Shown here: positions 2,795-11,008 of the stretch, piece after piece
Layout: the number at the start of each line of letters is the position of its first letter
Numbering within the stretch: position 1 is the first letter of the stretch
DNA from: a virus
Length of the DNA: 34,710 bases
Virus record (IMG/VR): IMGVR_UViG_3300034072_000067
Span: 1 to 34,710 of that record
Reading direction: 5' to 3' (one strand)
Made by a program: the position numbers and the translations under genes
Notes under the pieces: model-generated
What the model was told of the DNA's origin: nothing
Seen by the model: only the letters and a program-made list of their open reading frames with translations
Databases searched by the model: none

Positions 2795-3132
2795 GCTTCA
2801 AATACTTGCCTGAACTGCGCCGTAATCGTTGCGCGGCCTGTGTAGTTAATCTGCTTGTCCCACTGCTGGCAGACCCACTTGTAGCTGGTGCTTTCAGCAG
2901 GCGGCGTCCAGTCGAATGCCTCTTGACCGGCGCGTGCATCAAGGAATGCTTCGATGGTATCGGCGTTGGCTTCGGTGATGTTGTTCCAGCTCAGCTCCCA
3001 TACCTTTGGATTCTGGTTGATGCCAAATACAACCCGCTGTTCATAGCCAGAGCCGAACTGCACAGCATTAACCTTTGGCTCGCTGCGCTTGATGGCGCCA
3101 TAGCTCGGCGTAATCGACGGGAATGTGGCCAT
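2791..3132 (-). CDS. Minor tail protein, lambda gpM-like
   Basis: A 113-residue protein of the Phage_min_tail type. The middle carries QFGSGYEQRVVFGINQNP and a VWELSW strand, and the C-terminal half has an EAFLDARAGQEAFDW segment, all usual for gpM, which connects the tail tube to the tip complex. The start codon shares one base with the tape measure stop (TGATG), and the stop overlaps the next ATG by four bases. Length and position between tape measure and gpL fit the family. Confidence 0.88.
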   Translation of the reverse strand: MATFPSITPSYGAIKRSEPKVNAVQFGSGYEQRVVFGINQNPKVWELSWNNITEANADTIEAFLDARAGQEAFDWTPPAESTSYKWVCQQWDKQINYTGRATITAQFRQVFEA

Positions 3133-5321
3133 CAGTACAGCAAGCCTCCGGGACGCTTCTGCTTGACCAATTCTGCCTGCACCGCTGCACCGATGACAGC
3201 ACCCAGCGCCTTGGCCTGAGCGCCATCACCTTGGACGTTGCTGCCACTGGCGTCTACGTTGACCACCACATTGGCACCACCGCCAAAGCTGCCAGTCGGT
3301 GCAATGCCACCGCTACGTCCCGGCATGAACAGCTCAGGACCACGCTCGCCAACGATGTATGGCTGACCGCTGCGGACACTACCGCCGTTGGCACGGAACC
3401 CCAGCCCAACTGTGCTGAACGGAACCGAAGTAAAACCTCCGGAAATCATCGACGAACTTAAAGCACTGCCTGATACGCCTGCGTAAGAAAACCCGCCAAT
3501 ACCGCCACCACCACCACCAAACAATCCGCTGATGGCATTGATGGCTTTTTGGATAACAAATACTTGCAGCAGTTGGTTGGCGATGTCGATCAATACGCCA
3601 GAAGCGATACGCCGGAGACTGCTACCAAAATCTTCGCTGCCTTGGATCAAAGCATTAAACGCGCTGGTCATGCCTTCGCCAACTGTGTTGGCAATGCCAT
3701 CGGCTAGCACCTGCTGCTGCTTTTGTTGGTCTGTCAATGTATTTTGCAAGCCGATAATGCTTTCTAGAGCAGCAATTTGAGCTTTAGCGCTTTCGTTCTC
3801 TTCTTTGGCAAGCTCTCGCTGCATATCGCGTTGATTTGCAACAAAATCATTTTGTGCAGCAAAGATGATTGCCTGCTGAGCGCGGACATTAGTTTCCTTC
3901 GCAAGCTCTTGTGCGTAGCGATATTGCAAATCCAGTTCGCGCTGTTGACTTTGCAACCTAGCCACTTGCATTTTGTCGCCTTTCATTTCAGCAGCAGCAA
4001 TTCTGTCCTTTAGCTCTGAATTGAGCCTAGTGATTTGCCCCTCTGCCAGCCTGCTACGAATTACTTCAGCAACTCGATCAGCCTCTCTTCTTGCAGCTTC
4101 CGCGGCACGCTCAGCCTCGCGGGCTGCTTTGCCTTTGGCAGCAGTAGTGCCAGTTGGCGCAGTTGTGGTTCTAAGCGTCTGATTATTACGCTGCATAAAA
4201 TCGACTTGTTCCGATCCGGGAATATACCGACCGAACCTATCATTCATCGCTCGCTGGCGATTTGCGCCGCCACGAATAATGCTAGTGCCAAGATTGGTGG
4301 CGCCTCGAACCACTTGCATAGCCCAGCCTGGTGGCGTAAGGTTTGCAAAGTACCATTGCAGTTGCTCTAAACCGTTTAGCAATGGTGCTAACTTGCCCGC
4401 CATAAACTCGAATGCCAATGCAACATCTCTAATGTTTTGACTGCCATCTTGCAAAGACCGTGTAAGTGCTTTTATGCTTTCAATAACCACAGGCATCAAT
4501 GCTTCAGATATTGCAACTTGGAACTCTTCAAAAGCATTTTGCAGGTTTTTAACTTGCTGAGCTGGACCTTGCATTGCCGCCTCAAGCTGCCCAGCGCCAT
4601 CAGTTGCAGCACGTTGAAGCGCACGAATAACCACATCGCTGGTGATCTTGCCCTCTTCGGCAAGCTCGCGAATTTGGCTGACAGGAGCATTTAACTCTTT
4701 GGTCAGAGCAACAACAAGTCCGGGTGCCTGTTCAAGAACAGAATTAAGTTCTTGTCCGCGTAGCACGCCAGATCCAAGCGCTTGAGTTAACTGCAGCAAT
4801 GCGCCTGCTGACTCAGCGGTCGTTGTTCCACTAACTTTGGCGGCAGTATTGAAGCCAACAAATGCAGACTCAATGTCTTGCAGGCTGACGTTCAAAGGTC
4901 GTAAACGCCCGTAGAGCTGCGCGAATTGTTGGTTCGATTCAGTAGCACTTAAGCCAAATTGTCTTCCGGTGCGCGCCGCTGCTTCTTGAGCCTGAGCGAC
5001 TTCGTTGTAACCTTTAGCAAGAAAAGTCAATCGACGCGATGATTCTTCGCGCTGAATGCCAACATCAACCGCTTGCTGTGCAATGCGCAAAGCGCCATAA
5101 GCTGCGGCAACTTTTGCTACGGAATTAGCCAGTCCGACAAGACTAGATGCCGCTTGTCCGGCATTAGCCCTTGTTCTGCCTAATGCCGAATTGGTGCCAT
5201 TTACGGCTTGTGTTAATTGTTGCGTAGAAGAACTGGCGCGTCCAGACGCATTATTAACTTGCTGCAAGGCTTGTATAGCCTGCCGCGCATCAACCCTAAG
5301 CTCGACGTTAGAGACTGCCAT
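3132..5321 (-). CDS. Tail tape measure protein
   Basis: At 729 residues this is the longest tail gene. Residues about 70-250 match the tape-measure N-terminal domain: SSRRLTFLAKGYNEV, then LTQALGSGVLRGQELNSVLEQ and EEGKITSDVVIRAL. A long charged Ala/Gln/Arg-rich coiled-coil segment follows (about 400-530), and the C-terminus carries the common GGSVRSGQPYIVGERGPELF motif. It sets tail length and is ejected with the DNA. It follows the G/GT chaperone by 9 bases, as in lambda. By eye the DNA from about 3780 to 5320 is richer in A/T-ending codons than its neighbours, which may mean it was exchanged as a block. Confidence 0.93.
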   Translation of the reverse strand: MAVSNVELRVDARQAIQALQQVNNASGRASSSTQQLTQAVNGTNSALGRTRANAGQAASSLVGLANSVAKVAAAYGALRIAQQAVDVGIQREESSRRLTFLAKGYNEVAQAQEAAARTGRQFGLSATESNQQFAQLYGRLRPLNVSLQDIESAFVGFNTAAKVSGTTTAESAGALLQLTQALGSGVLRGQELNSVLEQAPGLVVALTKELNAPVSQIRELAEEGKITSDVVIRALQRAATDGAGQLEAAMQGPAQQVKNLQNAFEEFQVAISEALMPVVIESIKALTRSLQDGSQNIRDVALAFEFMAGKLAPLLNGLEQLQWYFANLTPPGWAMQVVRGATNLGTSIIRGGANRQRAMNDRFGRYIPGSEQVDFMQRNNQTLRTTTAPTGTTAAKGKAAREAERAAEAARREADRVAEVIRSRLAEGQITRLNSELKDRIAAAEMKGDKMQVARLQSQQRELDLQYRYAQELAKETNVRAQQAIIFAAQNDFVANQRDMQRELAKEENESAKAQIAALESIIGLQNTLTDQQKQQQVLADGIANTVGEGMTSAFNALIQGSEDFGSSLRRIASGVLIDIANQLLQVFVIQKAINAISGLFGGGGGGIGGFSYAGVSGSALSSSMISGGFTSVPFSTVGLGFRANGGSVRSGQPYIVGERGPELFMPGRSGGIAPTGSFGGGANVVVNVDASGSNVQGDGAQAKALGAVIGAAVQAELVKQKRPGGLLY

Positions 5322-5330
5322 AGCGCCAGT

Positions 5331-5507
5331 TTACTTGCGTCTGGCTTTGTCCATAGCCTCCTTCTCGCGTTCGCCTTTCAGCTCGTAGTACGCAGCAAAG
5401 TGCATGAACTCTGCATCGGTCAGTTCAGTCCGCAACCGGCTGATTGTCATGCCAAGCTCAGATGCCAGGAAGAACTCAAAGAAGAGCCAGTTATCCTGGC
5501 TCAGTCT
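5331..5507 (-). CDS. Tail assembly chaperone, -1 frame extension (gpT part of gpGT)
   Basis: This ORF is read only by a -1 shift at the end of gpG. The product would be 117 residues of G plus 58 residues of T, 175 in all. The extension includes ASELGMTISRLRTELTDAEF and FAAYYELKGEREKEA, the pattern commonly seen in T-type extensions of siphophage chaperones. It has no start of its own near the beginning. It ends at TAA (5331-5333), 9 bases before the tape measure start. In lambda the T part recruits the tail tube protein to the chaperoned tape measure. Confidence 0.85.
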   Translation of the reverse strand, partial: RLSQDNWLFFEFFLASELGMTISRLRTELTDAEFMHFAAYYELKGEREKEAMDKARRK

Positions 5508-5513
5508 TTTTTT
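5484..5513 (-). promoter_or_regulatory. Programmed -1 ribosomal frameshift site with stem-loop
   Basis: Read on the minus strand, seven A residues (5513-5507) followed by G give the X XXY YYZ heptamer A AAA AAA in the G frame. Four bases later comes a perfect 7-bp hairpin: GAGCCAG (5502-5496), loop GATAA, CTGGCTC (5490-5484). The zero-frame stop overlaps the start of the stem. Slippery heptamer, short spacer and hairpin are the three classical elements of a -1 frameshift signal. Confidence 0.85.
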
Positions 5514-5857
5514 GCTTCTTCTAGGCTCTCGTCGCCGCCAAGGCCAAACAGGAACAATTCAAGCTCATTCAGCACGCTCTCAGGCAGCTCGCGTTGCAGC
5601 TTGGCGGCATCAGCAGGTGCAAATGCTTTCTTGCCGTCTTCCAGCTCTGCCATCTGGCACAGCATCTGTGTACTGATCTCCAGAGCCTCGTCGCTACCGG
5701 CCAGCGTGGTGGCACGCTTGCGGTCGGCGCGTGTGATCGGCTTGAAATACAGATCCAACACCGCTTCGCCTGCAGCATTCTTGATGCTGAACTTACGGCG
5801 CTGGTTAAGGTCAAAAGCCCCAGTGAGCAGGTCAACGGGGCGCTGTGAGGCTGGCAT
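5501..5857 (-). CDS. Tail assembly chaperone, short form (gpG-like)
   Basis: A 118-residue acidic protein located between the tail tube genes and the tape measure, where lambda-type phages encode gpG. It contains KRATTLAGSDEALEISTQML and ends in EEAKKD. Its last codons contain the slippery sequence A AAA AAG, preceding an in-frame TGA at 5501-5503. The protein is expected to coat the tape measure protein during tail assembly and not to remain in the virion. The start overlaps the preceding tail-tube stop by one base (TGATG). Position, length and the frameshift site together identify it. Confidence 0.85.
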   Translation of the reverse strand: MPASQRPVDLLTGAFDLNQRRKFSIKNAAGEAVLDLYFKPITRADRKRATTLAGSDEALEISTQMLCQMAELEDGKKAFAPADAAKLQRELPESVLNELELFLFGLGGDESLEEAKKD

Positions 5858-6276
5858 CAGATGCTCAGGGTGAGAGTACCGCTAGAGACGAAATTGATAG
5901 TCACAATCTCGATCTCGCCAACAGTAGCGGAGTATTCGGTACTTGTCACCACAATGGTGCCGGTGATCTTTTTGCCGCCGGTTTCGTCCAAATACAGCTC
6001 AACCGCTGCATCAGCTTCGTCGGTGACTTGGTTGGCATCTTTGATCAGGTCCAGCTTGTCGCCAGCGCTGGGCGCGTCGTACATCACCTCGATGGTGCCG
6101 GTGCCGCTGATCAAGCCGCCGATGTTGGCACGGTAGGTGTCGCCGTGAGCGGTGGCATCATAGGACTCCTTTTCGACGGTCATCGACCACGACCGCACTG
6201 CAGCGATCTCGGAAAGACCACCGCTGCCAGCCTTGTCAAAGAAGACTGTGCCTTGCTGCCCGCGATAAAAAGCCAT
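5857..6276 (-). CDS. Tail tube protein, copy 2
   Basis: A 139-residue protein that aligns along its whole length with the upstream gene at 6279-6695. Shared blocks are MAFYRGQQG, RSWSMTVEKES, GDTYRAN, GGLISG and EYSATVGEIE. It is compact and beta-rich in appearance, as expected for a gpV-type tail tube subunit, and lies directly before the G/GT chaperone. It starts two bases after the stop of its paralogue. Which of the two copies is the bulk tube subunit cannot be told from sequence; one could be a minor or decorating tube protein. Confidence 0.78.
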   Translation of the reverse strand: MAFYRGQQGTVFFDKAGSGGLSEIAAVRSWSMTVEKESYDATAHGDTYRANIGGLISGTGTIEVMYDAPSAGDKLDLIKDANQVTDEADAAVELYLDETGGKKITGTIVVTSTEYSATVGEIEIVTINFVSSGTLTLSI

Positions 6277-6278
6277 GA

Positions 6279-6695
6279 TCAGATGTCCAGAGTGATGGCG
6301 CCGTTGGTGACGAAGTTGACGGTGATCACTTCGATCTCACCAACGGTAGCCGAGTATTCAGCCGAGGTAATCACGCCGTCAAAGCTGATCTTCTTGGTGC
6401 CGCCGGTATCAAGGTACAGCTCAAACAGGGCAGCGCCTGCATCGTTGGCAGTGTTGACATGCTCGATGAACACGTTGGTTTCATCGGCGCTGCTGGCGGT
6501 GTACATCAGCTCGCAAGTGCCGCTGCCGCTGATCAAGCCACCTACGTTGGCGCGATAGGTATCACCCAGTGCAGTGGTATCGAGCGATTCTTTCTCGACG
6601 GTCATCGACCACGAGCGAGTGCTGGTGATTGCTGCAGCGGCGGAGCCAGCGTCGTCGAACTTAACGCTGCCTTGCTGCCCTCGGTAAAAAGCCAT
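6279..6695 (-). CDS. Tail tube protein, copy 1
   Basis: A 138-residue paralogue of the following gene, sharing the N-terminal MAFYRGQQG and the central SWSMTVEKES and GDTYRANVGGLISGSGT blocks. The region around residues 70-90 and the extreme C-terminus diverge. The gene follows the tail terminator by only two bases. In lambda order the gene after gpU is gpV, the tail tube, so this copy occupies the canonical place. An intact frame and even conservation suggest it is expressed and not decaying. Confidence 0.78.
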   Translation of the reverse strand: MAFYRGQQGSVKFDDAGSAAAAITSTRSWSMTVEKESLDTTALGDTYRANVGGLISGSGTCELMYTASSADETNVFIEHVNTANDAGAALFELYLDTGGTKKISFDGVITSAEYSATVGEIEVITVNFVTNGAITLDI

Positions 6696-6697
6696 GG

Positions 6698-7123
6698 TTA
6701 GAGATCCTCGAAGGTTTCAAAGGTCAATCTGACCTGTGTTTGGAAGAAACCCTCTGGCGCCGGCGTAGCCACTACCTCGGGTCCGATCGGCGGGTCAAAA
6801 TGAACACCGCTGACTATGACCCTATTGTATAGATCCCTGATGCGCTTGCCGATCGTTAAGTTAGCGCCCGGACCAACGCCAAGTGGCGTAAAGATGTTGA
6901 TGGCAACAACGCCAATGATGCTGTTGTTGCTGCCAGTGGTGCCGCCTTGGGTCAGGTATTCATTAGCGCCAAAGCTGACAAGGCATTGCACCCATGAGCT
7001 GTTAGGCGTCGGCACATAGGGTTGATTGTGGAACACCACCGGAATAGCAGGCGACAGCGCCAGCTCTGTTGCAAGCCTGCCTTCAACGGTGGCGCGGATC
7101 GTGTTGAGGTTTGCAGCAGCCAT
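6698..7123 (-). CDS. Tail terminator-like protein (DUF4128 type)
   Basis: A 141-residue protein starting MAAANLNTIRATVEGRL, with PVVFHNQPYVPTPNSSWVQ in the middle and EGFFQTQVRLTFETFEDL at the end. This layout resembles DUF4128 and tail terminator (gpU-like) proteins that cap the tail tube and join it to the head. It lies between the gp10-like connector and the tail tube genes, as expected. The ATG overlaps the preceding stop by one base (TGATG). Family call is from recalled sequence pattern and position. Confidence 0.7.
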   Translation of the reverse strand: MAAANLNTIRATVEGRLATELALSPAIPVVFHNQPYVPTPNSSWVQCLVSFGANEYLTQGGTTGSNNSIIGVVAINIFTPLGVGPGANLTIGKRIRDLYNRVIVSGVHFDPPIGPEVVATPAPEGFFQTQVRLTFETFEDL

Positions 7124-8112: not shown

Positions 8113-8676
8113 TCAGCTCCTGCGGATTGAGAAGTTTCCAGGTCCACTAATTCTAAGCCCTGTCAGGTAACGCTCCATCAAGGGCGGCACCTTATCGGCG
8201 CCGACAGCGCCATAGCCAAGATTAGGCGTCACGTCAAGGCTGCCGATCTTGACGTTCTTGTAGTCCTCAAGCCCGCTAAGCCCTAACGCGCTGGTGTTGT
8301 TGTGCAAGAACACCGCCAACACGACCTGTGCGTATTTGATTTGCGTCGGAATCTCGGTATCGGTGAAATAGTCCGTCGTGATACGGAACGGGAACCCTAC
8401 GGCGTAAGTGTTGATGTAGGTATCAGGCTTGCGCACGCCCGTACGCGGCCACTGCAACGCCTGCGTATCGGTTGCCCTTGCGCCTAAATACCGTTCACGG
8501 TCTAGCCGTTGCGTCGCCGTAAACAAAGCACGGTTGCGGCTATCGGTGTTGCCACTGCCCCAGTGCTGAACATCTGCATCTTGGACAAAGCCATCAATAA
8601 TGGCAGTCGCTTCTGCAAGCGTCACATAAGTATTGGCCGCGGCGCCACCAACGGTTGCATCAAGGACAATCGCCAT
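8113..8676 (-). CDS. Head-tail adaptor protein (DnaT-like / gp6-type connector)
   Basis: A 187-residue protein. The N-terminus contains NTYVTLAEATAIID, the typical opening of the so-called DnaT-like phage adaptor family, followed by RALFTATQRLDRERYLGAR and QALQWPRTG. This pattern is found in the ring of adaptor proteins that docks on the portal. The name DnaT-like reflects an old database label and does not imply DNA replication. It lies downstream of the capsid gene and before other connectors. The start is inside the end of the 53-residue upstream ORF. Confidence 0.75.
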   Translation of the reverse strand: MAIVLDATVGGAAANTYVTLAEATAIIDGFVQDADVQHWGSGNTDSRNRALFTATQRLDRERYLGARATDTQALQWPRTGVRKPDTYINTYAVGFPFRITTDYFTDTEIPTQIKYAQVVLAVFLHNNTSALGLSGLEDYKNVKIGSLDVTPNLGYGAVGADKVPPLMERYLTGLRISGPGNFSIRRS

Positions 8677-8821: not shown

Positions 8822-9222
8822 CAGACGCGCTTGAGCAGCACGGTCAGGATCACACCAGCTAGAGCGGTGGTGGTGCCGGTGACATCCAGAGACAGGCGAT
8901 CGCCAGCCTCAAGGGTCAGATTGGCGGTGGTCGCGGTCAACGCAGGGGTCTGCTCAGTAAGAGCAGTGCCCTTGAAGTCGATCTTGGTGTCGCCCAGCAG
9001 GTCATCACCAGCAGTTGCGGCTTCGGTGCCTTGGCAACGACGAATCGTGCCAGAAACAGCGGAGCCATCAGTGCCAGCGGTGACATGGACTTCACGCACT
9101 GCAACCACTTCGCAATCAACAGGAGCGGTCCAGAACTGCACATCAGCAACAGTGCCGCTGATGTAGTGGGTGGCAGTCAGGTACTGCTCGGTACTCAGTT
9201 CAAACTGGGAAGGTTGTGCCAT
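8821..9222 (-). CDS. Probable capsid decoration/auxiliary head protein
   Basis: A 133-residue Thr/Ala/Val-rich protein directly downstream of the major capsid gene. It shows a beta-strand pattern (VDCEVVAVREVHVTAG, and LTLEAGDRLSLDV near the end). Decoration proteins are often encoded beside the major capsid gene and have this size and composition. I do not recognise a specific family. A GAGGT ribosome binding site lies about 10 bases before the ATG, a better signal than most genes here have, which fits high expression. Confidence 0.5.
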   Translation of the reverse strand: MAQPSQFELSTEQYLTATHYISGTVADVQFWTAPVDCEVVAVREVHVTAGTDGSAVSGTIRRCQGTEAATAGDDLLGDTKIDFKGTALTEQTPALTATTANLTLEAGDRLSLDVTGTTTALAGVILTVLLKRV

Positions 9223-9233
9223 GATCAGTTACC

Positions 9234-10256
9234 TCAATCCATATTGGACAGGTTAGTGGCGCGCACGATGCCGAGGTTTTTCAGCTCGTACACCTTCGAC
9301 CAGTTGCCAACCGTTTCGAGCTGAGCACGAGTCGGATTAGCGGTGGTCACTGCCCACTTGGCACCAACAGGGTGGTAGCAGTAGTGCAGGTCGATCGACA
9401 TGGCATCGCTCTTGGCGAGGATGTCACGATCGGTTTCGGTCTGCATTGCCATCTGCTCACCAGAGGCAACAGCGCCAGCGGTGAAGAAGTAGGTGGCGTA
9501 CTCGGTATTGGAACCACTCTCAGCGGTTTGCACGTCATCAGAGACGATCACGCGCAGACCCATGAAAGTAGGAACTGCAACCGAACCAAAGGCAGTAGCG
9601 GTCGAACCTTGCGATGCGCTGGTGTCAGCGGCACCGGTGTTGTCGTAGATGTAGTCGATCGCTTTGCGCTCAACAAGGTCGTAGTAGACCTTGCTGTGGC
9701 AGCACATAGCGGTCAGCTTGTCACCTTGATCACCCAGCAGTGCGCGAGCCTCTGCAACGTGGCGGGGGCTAAGCACAGTGGGGCTATCGCCAGACCCACC
9801 GTCGATGGTCAGGTCGAAGAAAGCAGCGCTGCTAGTGGTGGTGTTGACAGAGCCAAACACGCCGCCAAGGCAGGACAGCAGGTCCTTCTGACGCTGGTTA
9901 GCAACGTAGTCAGCGATCTTGGCGCCAATGGCAGCCATCGGGTCGGCACCAGCAGCCAGAGCTGCCAGATCACGAGCCTCGAAAGCACGACCACGGTGCA
10001 GGATCACGCCAACTTGCTTATCAGCAGTGATTTTGCCGGGGGTCAGCGAAGAGCTGTCAGACAGCACCTCGAAGTCGCCAGACAGGTTGGCCTTCCAGAA
10101 AGGCACGTTGATAAAATCACCACCCTCAGCAGCATTTAGCTCCGCCATGGGCTGCACCACGCCGCTAGCCAAAAAGGCATCACGCTGCGTGGTTTGCTCA
10201 ATGACGTAAGGCGTAAATACCTCGGGGATGATGATGTCAGAGCGAAGAGTCGCCAT
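9234..10256 (-). CDS. Major capsid protein (HK97 fold)
   Basis: A 340-residue protein starting MATLRSDIIIPEVFTPYVIE, with GGDFINVPFWKANLSGD near residue 64 and a HRGRAFEARDLAALAAGADPM segment. These resemble the major capsid group whose members begin with 'IIPEVF' and carry a 'PFW' block. It follows the scaffold gene and precedes the head-tail genes, the standard order. AGGA lies about 8 bases before the ATG. No N-terminal cleavage domain is apparent, since a separate scaffold is encoded. The intergenic stretch before it (10257-10327) shows nothing further. Confidence 0.88.
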   Translation of the reverse strand: MATLRSDIIIPEVFTPYVIEQTTQRDAFLASGVVQPMAELNAAEGGDFINVPFWKANLSGDFEVLSDSSSLTPGKITADKQVGVILHRGRAFEARDLAALAAGADPMAAIGAKIADYVANQRQKDLLSCLGGVFGSVNTTTSSAAFFDLTIDGGSGDSPTVLSPRHVAEARALLGDQGDKLTAMCCHSKVYYDLVERKAIDYIYDNTGAADTSASQGSTATAFGSVAVPTFMGLRVIVSDDVQTAESGSNTEYATYFFTAGAVASGEQMAMQTETDRDILAKSDAMSIDLHYCYHPVGAKWAVTTANPTRAQLETVGNWSKVYELKNLGIVRATNLSNMD

Positions 10257-10327
10257 GAGTCATCCTCAGAATTGGTTTACGGTGTGGGCGCAGCCCTAAA
10301 TCACCAGCGCAGCCGGTTGGCAATAGC

Positions 10328-11008
10328 TTAACGGTTCGCCATTGCTTTCATCCGATCATACATGTCACGGTCTGTTCTAAACAGACGTGCTTGCTCAGTC
10401 AGATTGAATGTTTCCTTGTTGAACGGATTGGTCATACCGGGCGGAATGCTGTTGCTGGTAACACCAGCAGCCGGCGCACCACTGCCTTGCGGCTTGGGTT
10501 GCTTTTGCATCCAGCTAGGCAGCGTCTGCTTAGCCCATTCGCTAACAGGTGTGCGCTGGTAGCCGTCAACAACAACCACGGTGCCATCAGCTTCGCGCTC
10601 GATCTTGTCGGCACTCAGTTTGGTCTTGAGCACCATATCAGGATCGTGCACAATGTCAGCCAATGCCGTGACCGCTGGCGTAATCAGCTCTAGCTCTCGG
10701 ACACGGGCTTCAAGGTCGCTGATGCGCTGGTCCTTTTCTGCCGTCGCCTCACGGAACTGCTGCTCCAAAGCCTGTCTGGCTTCGGTGTATTTGCCTTGGG
10801 ATTCAAGCTGCTGCTGCTCGTAATTGCGCTTGAACTCAAGCAGTTCTTCAACATTGACACCATCAGGCAACTTCTTTGACTTGGCTTGCCGTAGCTCAGC
10901 GATTAGTTCTTGATTTTTGCGCTCAAGTGCCTCGACGCTGCGCTGCAACGCTTCGGTATTTTCAACCCCAGTAGCCGCAAGCTCCTGAGTTTGTGTTTCG
11001 TCAGACAT
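10328..11008 (-). CDS. Capsid scaffold protein
   Basis: A 226-residue, highly charged protein. Residues about 15-115 form a long predicted coiled coil (for example ALERKNQELIAELRQAKSK and REATAEKDQRISDLEARVRE). A C-terminal region FNKETFNLTEQARLFRTDRD resembles the capsid-binding helices of phage scaffolds. It immediately precedes the capsid gene. A sigma-70-like promoter (11038-11066) and a small hairpin just before the ATG may control its expression. Scaffolds guide procapsid assembly and leave before packaging. Confidence 0.8.
   Translation of the reverse strand: MSDETQTQELAATGVENTEALQRSVEALERKNQELIAELRQAKSKKLPDGVNVEELLEFKRNYEQQQLESQGKYTEARQALEQQFREATAEKDQRISDLEARVRELELITPAVTALADIVHDPDMVLKTKLSADKIEREADGTVVVVDGYQRTPVSEWAKQTLPSWMQKQPKPQGSGAPAAGVTSNSIPPGMTNPFNKETFNLTEQARLFRTDRDMYDRMKAMANR

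Follow-up and report, generated by a model that had tools for sequence, protein, structure and literature searches.

Two adjacent tail-tube genes in a virus genome: probable old tandem duplicates encoding specialised tube subunits

This study concerns two adjacent genes on the minus strand of a 34,710-base virus record (IMG/VR record IMGVR_UViG_3300034072_000067; the whole record is called the window). The first tail-tube (major tail) protein gene, A (6279 to 6695), and the second, B (5857 to 6276), each begin with ATG and have an intact frame, and they encode proteins of 138 and 139 amino acids (aa), respectively. We conclude from their sequences that A and B are probably old tandem duplicates that became specialised tube subunits, both of which would take part in building the tube of the same virion. 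BLASTP aligned the two proteins end to end with 85 of 139 residues identical (61%; E 8e-57), a sequence likeness far beyond chance. When the whole record was searched with A, two copies and no third were found.

Relatives were collected by scans of IMG/VR, which returned the best 80 of 340 (query A), 382 (query B), 186 (query Synechococcus phage S-H1), 264, 106 (query L243-B) and 176 related stretches. The scans often met the same contig, so the loci are not independent, whereas distinct pairs are. Two groups with the pair were named: F, the window's own group, with subgroups F1 and F2, and S, the S-H1-like group. The names imply no habitat; only S-H1 has a named host, the marine cyanobacterium Synechococcus WH 7803. 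Two copies were present in 152 of the 158 loci from the A and B scans (best 80 each) and in 78 of 79 new loci from the S-H1 scan. The six and one remaining loci (L015, L016, L047, L089, L118, L121 and L200) all ran off the end of their contig. Taken together, the scans yielded 280 loci in which both copies were readable in full; many of these loci lie on the same contigs, and they represent 190 distinct pairs. Thirty-nine records were searched whole: 24 two-copy records, S-H1 included, each of which held exactly two copies; six records of group P (P-HS2, MED4-184 and relatives) and three of group D (DSL-LC06-like), with one copy each; and six of group T, which is described further below.

Identity and age of the gene pair

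The assignment of A and B as tail-tube proteins was based on protein family, fold and gene order. Both proteins matched phrog_10528 (major tail protein), A with an E value of 1.6e-23 and B with 4.2e-19. A Pfam tail-tube model was not reached: B scored 18 bits against Phage_tail_2 (E 0.003), below the gathering cutoff of 23.8, and A had no match at E<=1. The sub-cutoff score lowers only the claim of membership in the Phage_tail_2 family. The best solved relative by sequence was the tube protein of R4C (PDB 8gtb; profile A1, E 6.3e-16), and RcGTA gave a weaker match (E 0.002). AlphaFold2 models of A (predicted local distance difference test score, pLDDT, 78.2; predicted template modelling score, pTM, 0.72) and of B (pLDDT 75.0; pTM 0.70) showed the beta sandwich, long loop and peripheral helix of the tube fold. 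In Foldseek searches with these models, the tube proteins of RcGTA, monocin, Sf11, R4C and lambda were among the best solved matches. The top matches were tube proteins or particles containing them (probability 1.00, E from 3.3e-5), with template modelling scores of only 0.42–0.53, which are modest; the top entry for both models was 6toa_G (RcGTA neck). In gene order, A and B sit between the tail terminator gene and a tape-measure candidate, the latter named by its size and position only.

The ratio of nonsynonymous to synonymous substitution rates (dN/dS), calculated for distinct sequences, had a median of 0.059 for A and 0.057 for B in group F; in group S the medians were 0.081 for A and 0.070 for B. 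Synonymous sites were close to saturation (median dS 1.0–1.2). The low ratios indicate strong purifying selection on both copies. In a FastTree phylogeny of 265 proteins, A formed one clade (0.78) and B formed one clade (0.92) save for one row, which came from the single-hit set and is presumably L118, the B of a cut contig. Because each clade held members of both F and S, the duplication predates the F/S split. In later trees with more groups, A was still one clade (support of 92 in one tree and 89/91 in another).

An earlier note, made from the letters of the window, had called the genes tandem duplicated tail-tube genes with intact frames, whose products of 138–139 aa align end to end. The alignment and the frames were as described, and family, fold, gene order and trees all support tandem duplication as the origin of these tail-tube proteins. 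The opinion that both proteins are probably made gained indirect support from the low dN/dS (0.06–0.08) and from the presence of both genes in the sampled F and S loci not cut by a contig end. The note had also proposed that the duplication be sought in relatives and dated by tree; it was present in 190 distinct pairs, and the phylogeny makes it older than the F/S split.

Differences and joint change between A and B

Identity between A and B was determined in blocks of 20 alignment columns for 142 of 144 pairs (L186 and L243 were dropped). In the 97 distinct pairs of group F the means were 75, 62, 82, 35, 51, 65 and 66%. The earlier note's description of shared ends and a different middle therefore holds for the ends and only in part for the middle: columns 61–80, around a predicted helix, are the most divergent segment, but columns 41–60, the long-loop segment directly before it, are the closest. 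Within a genome, columns 61–80 of A and B were 35% alike in F and 32% alike in S; between groups F and S, the same columns were 63% alike for A and 72% alike for B.

The long loop contains a fixed difference. In the window it covers residues 32–57 of A (6525 to 6602, minus strand) and residues 33–58 of B (6103 to 6180, minus strand). Residue A43, a Leu, aligns with M38 of R4C, which inserts its side chain into a hydrophobic pocket on the next ring (PMC10276861), and the corresponding plug position in B, B44, is His. For this position 187 of the 190 pairs were analysed, two with a cut A and L186 having been dropped by length; all 187 had Leu or Met at the plug of A and His or Gln at that of B. 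Net charge was similar for A and B in F1 and S, and less so in F2 (−7.4 versus −11.0).

Other residues changed together in the two genes. Lys48 in A served to define subgroup F2, so that A has this residue by definition; this does not apply to the B residues. At residues 36, 37, 39 and 48, A and B both carry ESDR in 97 of 98 F1 members and both carry DVEK in 40 of 40 F2 members. DVEK is also present in both genes of L396, which was first counted in S and was moved to F2 after its residues had been seen. Likeness between the long loops of A and B in the same genome (84 and 85%) exceeded that of the A loops (69%) or the B loops (62%) across F1 and F2. The same F1/F2 substitution was found in A and B at seven positions (A 7, 36, 37, 39, 48, 113 and 121). 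At an 80% consensus threshold there were eight shared sites among 12 differences in A and 14 in B (90 eligible), an overlap with p 1.5e-5 in a simple model that takes no account of phylogeny. Because A and B changed alike at seven positions, they may share contact surfaces. Three of these positions, 37, 48 and 113, align with R4C E32, E43 and E103, which are described as contacting the same-ring neighbour (PMC10276861). Codon matching at shared loop residues was 0.510 within and 0.492 between genomes in F1, and 0.464 and 0.460 in F2; since it is no better within genomes, the likeness in these subgroups is not accounted for by recent gene conversion. We read the F1/F2 pattern as pointing to a contact surface that both proteins share and that is under selection; old gene conversion is a serious competing explanation.

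The stop codon of A and the start codon of B are separated by two bases (TGA-TC-ATG; 6274 to 6281, minus strand), and this spacing was the same in all 190 distinct pairs (IMG/VR loci and S-H1). GAGG, GGAG or AGGA was present just upstream of A in 183 of the 190 and just upstream of B in none. In two pairs A was truncated at the edge of its contig and was read from an internal start (75 and 108 aa); some of the seven A genes lacking the motif may be explained in this way. Because a motif resembling a ribosome site precedes A only, B is probably translated by re-initiation. The motif lies within the last codons of the terminator gene and may be kept there for coding reasons. Fusion of A and B by an SPP1-like frameshift was also considered and set aside, no slippery site being noticed at the junction on inspection by eye, without computation.

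Two intact tube genes under selection suggest that the tube has two kinds of subunit, not one. In the mechanism that we propose, a tail-tube gene of the lambda/RcGTA type would have been duplicated once in tandem, long ago, to give A and B. A would have a ribosome site of its own, and translation of B would re-initiate at the A stop. The two proteins would each form or join hexameric rings stacked around the tape measure, their docking loops would reach largely the same acceptor surfaces and so permit co-assembly, and the plug residue and helix region would set A apart from B and give each its place. From copies that are specialised and yet change together we infer either a mixed tube or different tube parts, as the earlier note had supposed. 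Mixed rings, alternating rings and special end rings would all be compatible with these sequences; with about even confidence, we prefer an arrangement in which the bulk tube contains both A and B, either within the same ring or from one ring to the next, over a special end ring. A stricter version is offered more tentatively, namely an obligate two-component tube in which A and B would be joined from ring to ring by a heterotypic contact, one having a Leu/Met plug and the other a His/Gln plug, both recognised by common acceptor surfaces, and the subunits would follow a programmed order along or around the tube.

Evidence against and alternative explanations

Several observations weigh against a tube built from specialised A and B subunits. 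A single gene occupies the tube slot in all sampled loci of groups P (80 of 80), D (80 of 80) and T (18 of 18). The plug in these relatives is Phe, Met or Leu in T (12 of 12 distinct), Met in D (55 of 55) and Gln in P (42 of 46); a polar plug can therefore evidently work alone, and the simple rule that a lone tube protein needs a hydrophobic plug was rejected because group P contradicts it. Residues were matched to R4C by sequence alignment, and it is in the loop that both models are weakest (pLDDT about 50). B was not one clade in the later trees, where a long outgroup branch set the root within B, T and the L243 type lay on B's side, and the best tree joined P with A (86/81). The approximately unbiased test rejected none of the placements of P outside A+B+T (p 0.42), B+T (0.30), A+B alone (0.45) or A+T (0.29). 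In a tree of the terminator and chaperone-candidate proteins, P lay outside (100/100), T lay among S phages, and some forks were open. On these trees, the single slot of P and T may reflect either the loss of a copy or an original single gene.

The joint change of A and B is subject to similar limits. The F1/F2 co-change is one split and not many events, so that its p value says only that A and B are not independent there. The sole F1 exception of 98, L093, has the loop EAER in A and keeps ESDR in B, and is possibly an intermediate or a true exception to joint change. The controls were not flat: identical changes numbered one for F1-S (p 0.53), three for F2-S (p 0.0098), one for S-243 (p 0.11) and three for F1-243 (p 0.30), and shared tolerance of sites is therefore part of the F1/F2 pattern. 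In group S, the A and B loops were only 49% alike, and loop codon matching was 0.598 within versus 0.498 between genomes; recent gene conversion in the loop of this group is possible.

Two alternatives are doubtful in our judgement, and to about the same degree. In one, a single copy would form the bulk tube and the other only one or more rings at its beginning or end, adapting it to the terminator or tail tip in the manner of Alg5/Alg7 in AlgoCIS, where tube-fold initiator layers exist (PMC8894135). The differences in plug residue and helix region between A and B in the pairs examined are consistent with such a role, and B, which has no ribosome-site-like motif, may be made in smaller amounts. 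In addition, four of the six group T records, which have no A in the tube slot, have one or two further tube-domain genes, placed in the tail-tip region in the three that were read. However, the A and B loops changed alike between F1 and F2, and a tip ring with a different loop partner would not be expected to follow; an end ring on the head side fits this co-change better than one at the tip. In the other, the loop likeness would come from old gene conversion between neighbours rather than from co-evolution of an interface, and contact between A and B would not be needed. The genes are adjacent and alike, and the codon matching in group S points in this direction. The nearly equal matching within and between F1 and F2 genomes argues against recent but not old conversion. 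The co-changed sites are, however, scattered (7, 36–48, 113, 121), with A- or B-specific sites between them (43, 64–81), so that several conversion tracts would be needed.

A simple effect of gene dosage, with interchangeable copies giving more tube protein, for example for a longer tail, appears improbable. Tube proteins are needed in large numbers, and most residues are common to A and B; interchangeable copies would nevertheless not be expected to keep the fixed plug and helix-region differences. Tape-measure candidates were no longer in the two-copy groups (median 726 aa in F, 124 loci; 663 aa in S, 14 loci) than in the single-slot groups (771 aa in P, 55 loci; 725 aa in T, 9 loci), and given this similarity in size, tail length is not an evident reason for the pair. 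We consider it very improbable that A or B is absent from the virion or is being lost. Relatives with a single gene in the tube slot would be in line with loss, as would the B of L186, which runs into another frame near its end, but both copies have low dN/dS and, in the sampled F and S loci, copies were missing only at contig ends.

Neighbouring genes, other groups and known tail tubes

The terminator gene (6698 to 7123, minus strand), just upstream of A, matched Pfam Phage_tail_terminator_5 above the cutoff and phrog_179 (E 2.3e-15). Just downstream of B is a tail assembly chaperone candidate (5501 to 5857, minus strand), which matched phrog_20784 (function unknown; E 1.1e-38) and, weakly, the tail assembly chaperone phrog_344 (E 0.032). 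The tape-measure candidate (3132 to 5321, minus strand) has 729 aa. In the direction of transcription on the minus strand, the head part of the cluster consists of capsid (phrog_247), head-tail adaptor (phrog_477), head-closure (phrog_161) and Neck1-type (phrog_169) genes. The tail part follows with the terminator, A, B, the chaperone candidate, the tape-measure candidate and then lambda-like minor tail M and L, after which the window has two K-like pieces (JAB and NlpC/P60). The protein of 8113 to 8676 (minus strand) is named a putative DnaT-like ssDNA-binding protein by Pfam (PF20557), a name that may be misleading; phrog_477 and its position identify it as head-tail adaptor Ad1.

The L243-B scan of 80 loci gave 59 with two matches, 20 with one and one with three. 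The single matches were the 18 loci of group T plus L371 and L402, which lie near a contig edge, and the three-match locus, L347, was one gene matched in two pieces. That gene (L347:1059-1613, plus strand) is an A copy with about 45 extra residues near its start, rich in Gly, Ala and Thr, for a total of 184 aa. In L243, L327 and L328, an S-type A adjoins a T-type second tube gene; the second slot was thus once filled by, or gave rise to, the group T tube protein. On the contig of L328 the tape measure is followed by M-, L- and K-like genes, an arrangement not seen in the group T contigs that were read.

The further tube-domain matches in group T lie about 8 kb away, and the two records lacking them are short contigs. 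For this reason group T is described as having one copy in the tube slot and not as plainly single-copy. In L486, two tube-domain proteins of 144 and 289 aa (9089-9523 and 9520-10389, both plus strand) are encoded beside a minor-tail-like gene in a rearranged tail-tip region, and similar genes are present in L487 and L488. P-HS2 has an annotated 153-base open reading frame between the terminator and tube genes (L004:7819-7971, plus strand), where the window and most two-copy pairs have two bases. In MED4-117, A matched two places in a phage search; the low-end place was examined, and the other may be an end repeat. A scan of genome contigs for prophage relatives gave 16 pattern matches and no relatives.

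Pairs of related tube genes have already been reported in actinophages, with their purpose left unexplained (PMC12859696), and the paired feature is listed for Damascus (cluster EL) and for clusters AM, AU, AW, BI, CC and DJ (PMC11080557). In the first of these reports the two proteins are 43% identical, their genes are one gene apart, one copy is 51 residues longer, and the authors think that it was horizontally acquired. In contrast, the genes of the present pair are adjacent, nearly equal in length and 61% identical, and by the trees stem from an old duplication. In the open-licence literature on duplicated tube genes, S-H1 and MED4-117, we found no report of a tube-gene pair in cyanophages, which is weak evidence. 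What is new relative to the actinophage cases is the adjacency, the fixed junction, the old duplication and the residue-level evidence of specialisation and joint change.

In T5, the tube domain is duplicated within pb6 and fused in one chain, whereas A and B are separate chains. Phage vB_DshS-R4C has the same fold class and alignable contact residues, but is described with one tube protein, which has the Met38 plug (PMC10276861). The top fold match, RcGTA Rcc01691 (PDB 6tba/6toa), is likewise described as the one tube protein of that particle, which has five rings (PMC7296036). SPP1 has two subunits in one tube, as proposed for the present phages: gp17.1 and an extended form, mixed 3:1 (PMC8718954). 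These come from one gene, a frameshift adding an FN3 domain; A and B are two open reading frames (138 and 139 aa) with no added domain and so do not form a two-form tube of the SPP1 type. AlgoCIS has several tube-fold proteins in one tube, Alg1 with Alg5 and Alg7 in separate layers (PMC8894135); unlike the present case, it is contractile, its initiator layers lie by the spike, and its proteins are not tandem paralogs of nearly equal length.

Siphophage tail tubes have mostly been described as stacks of identical rings, and the phages with A and B, a widely sampled group, keep two distinct subunits. They allow a direct test of whether a long non-contractile tube may be a patterned heteropolymer and of what role the second subunit has, and the same question of its purpose arises in the actinophages.
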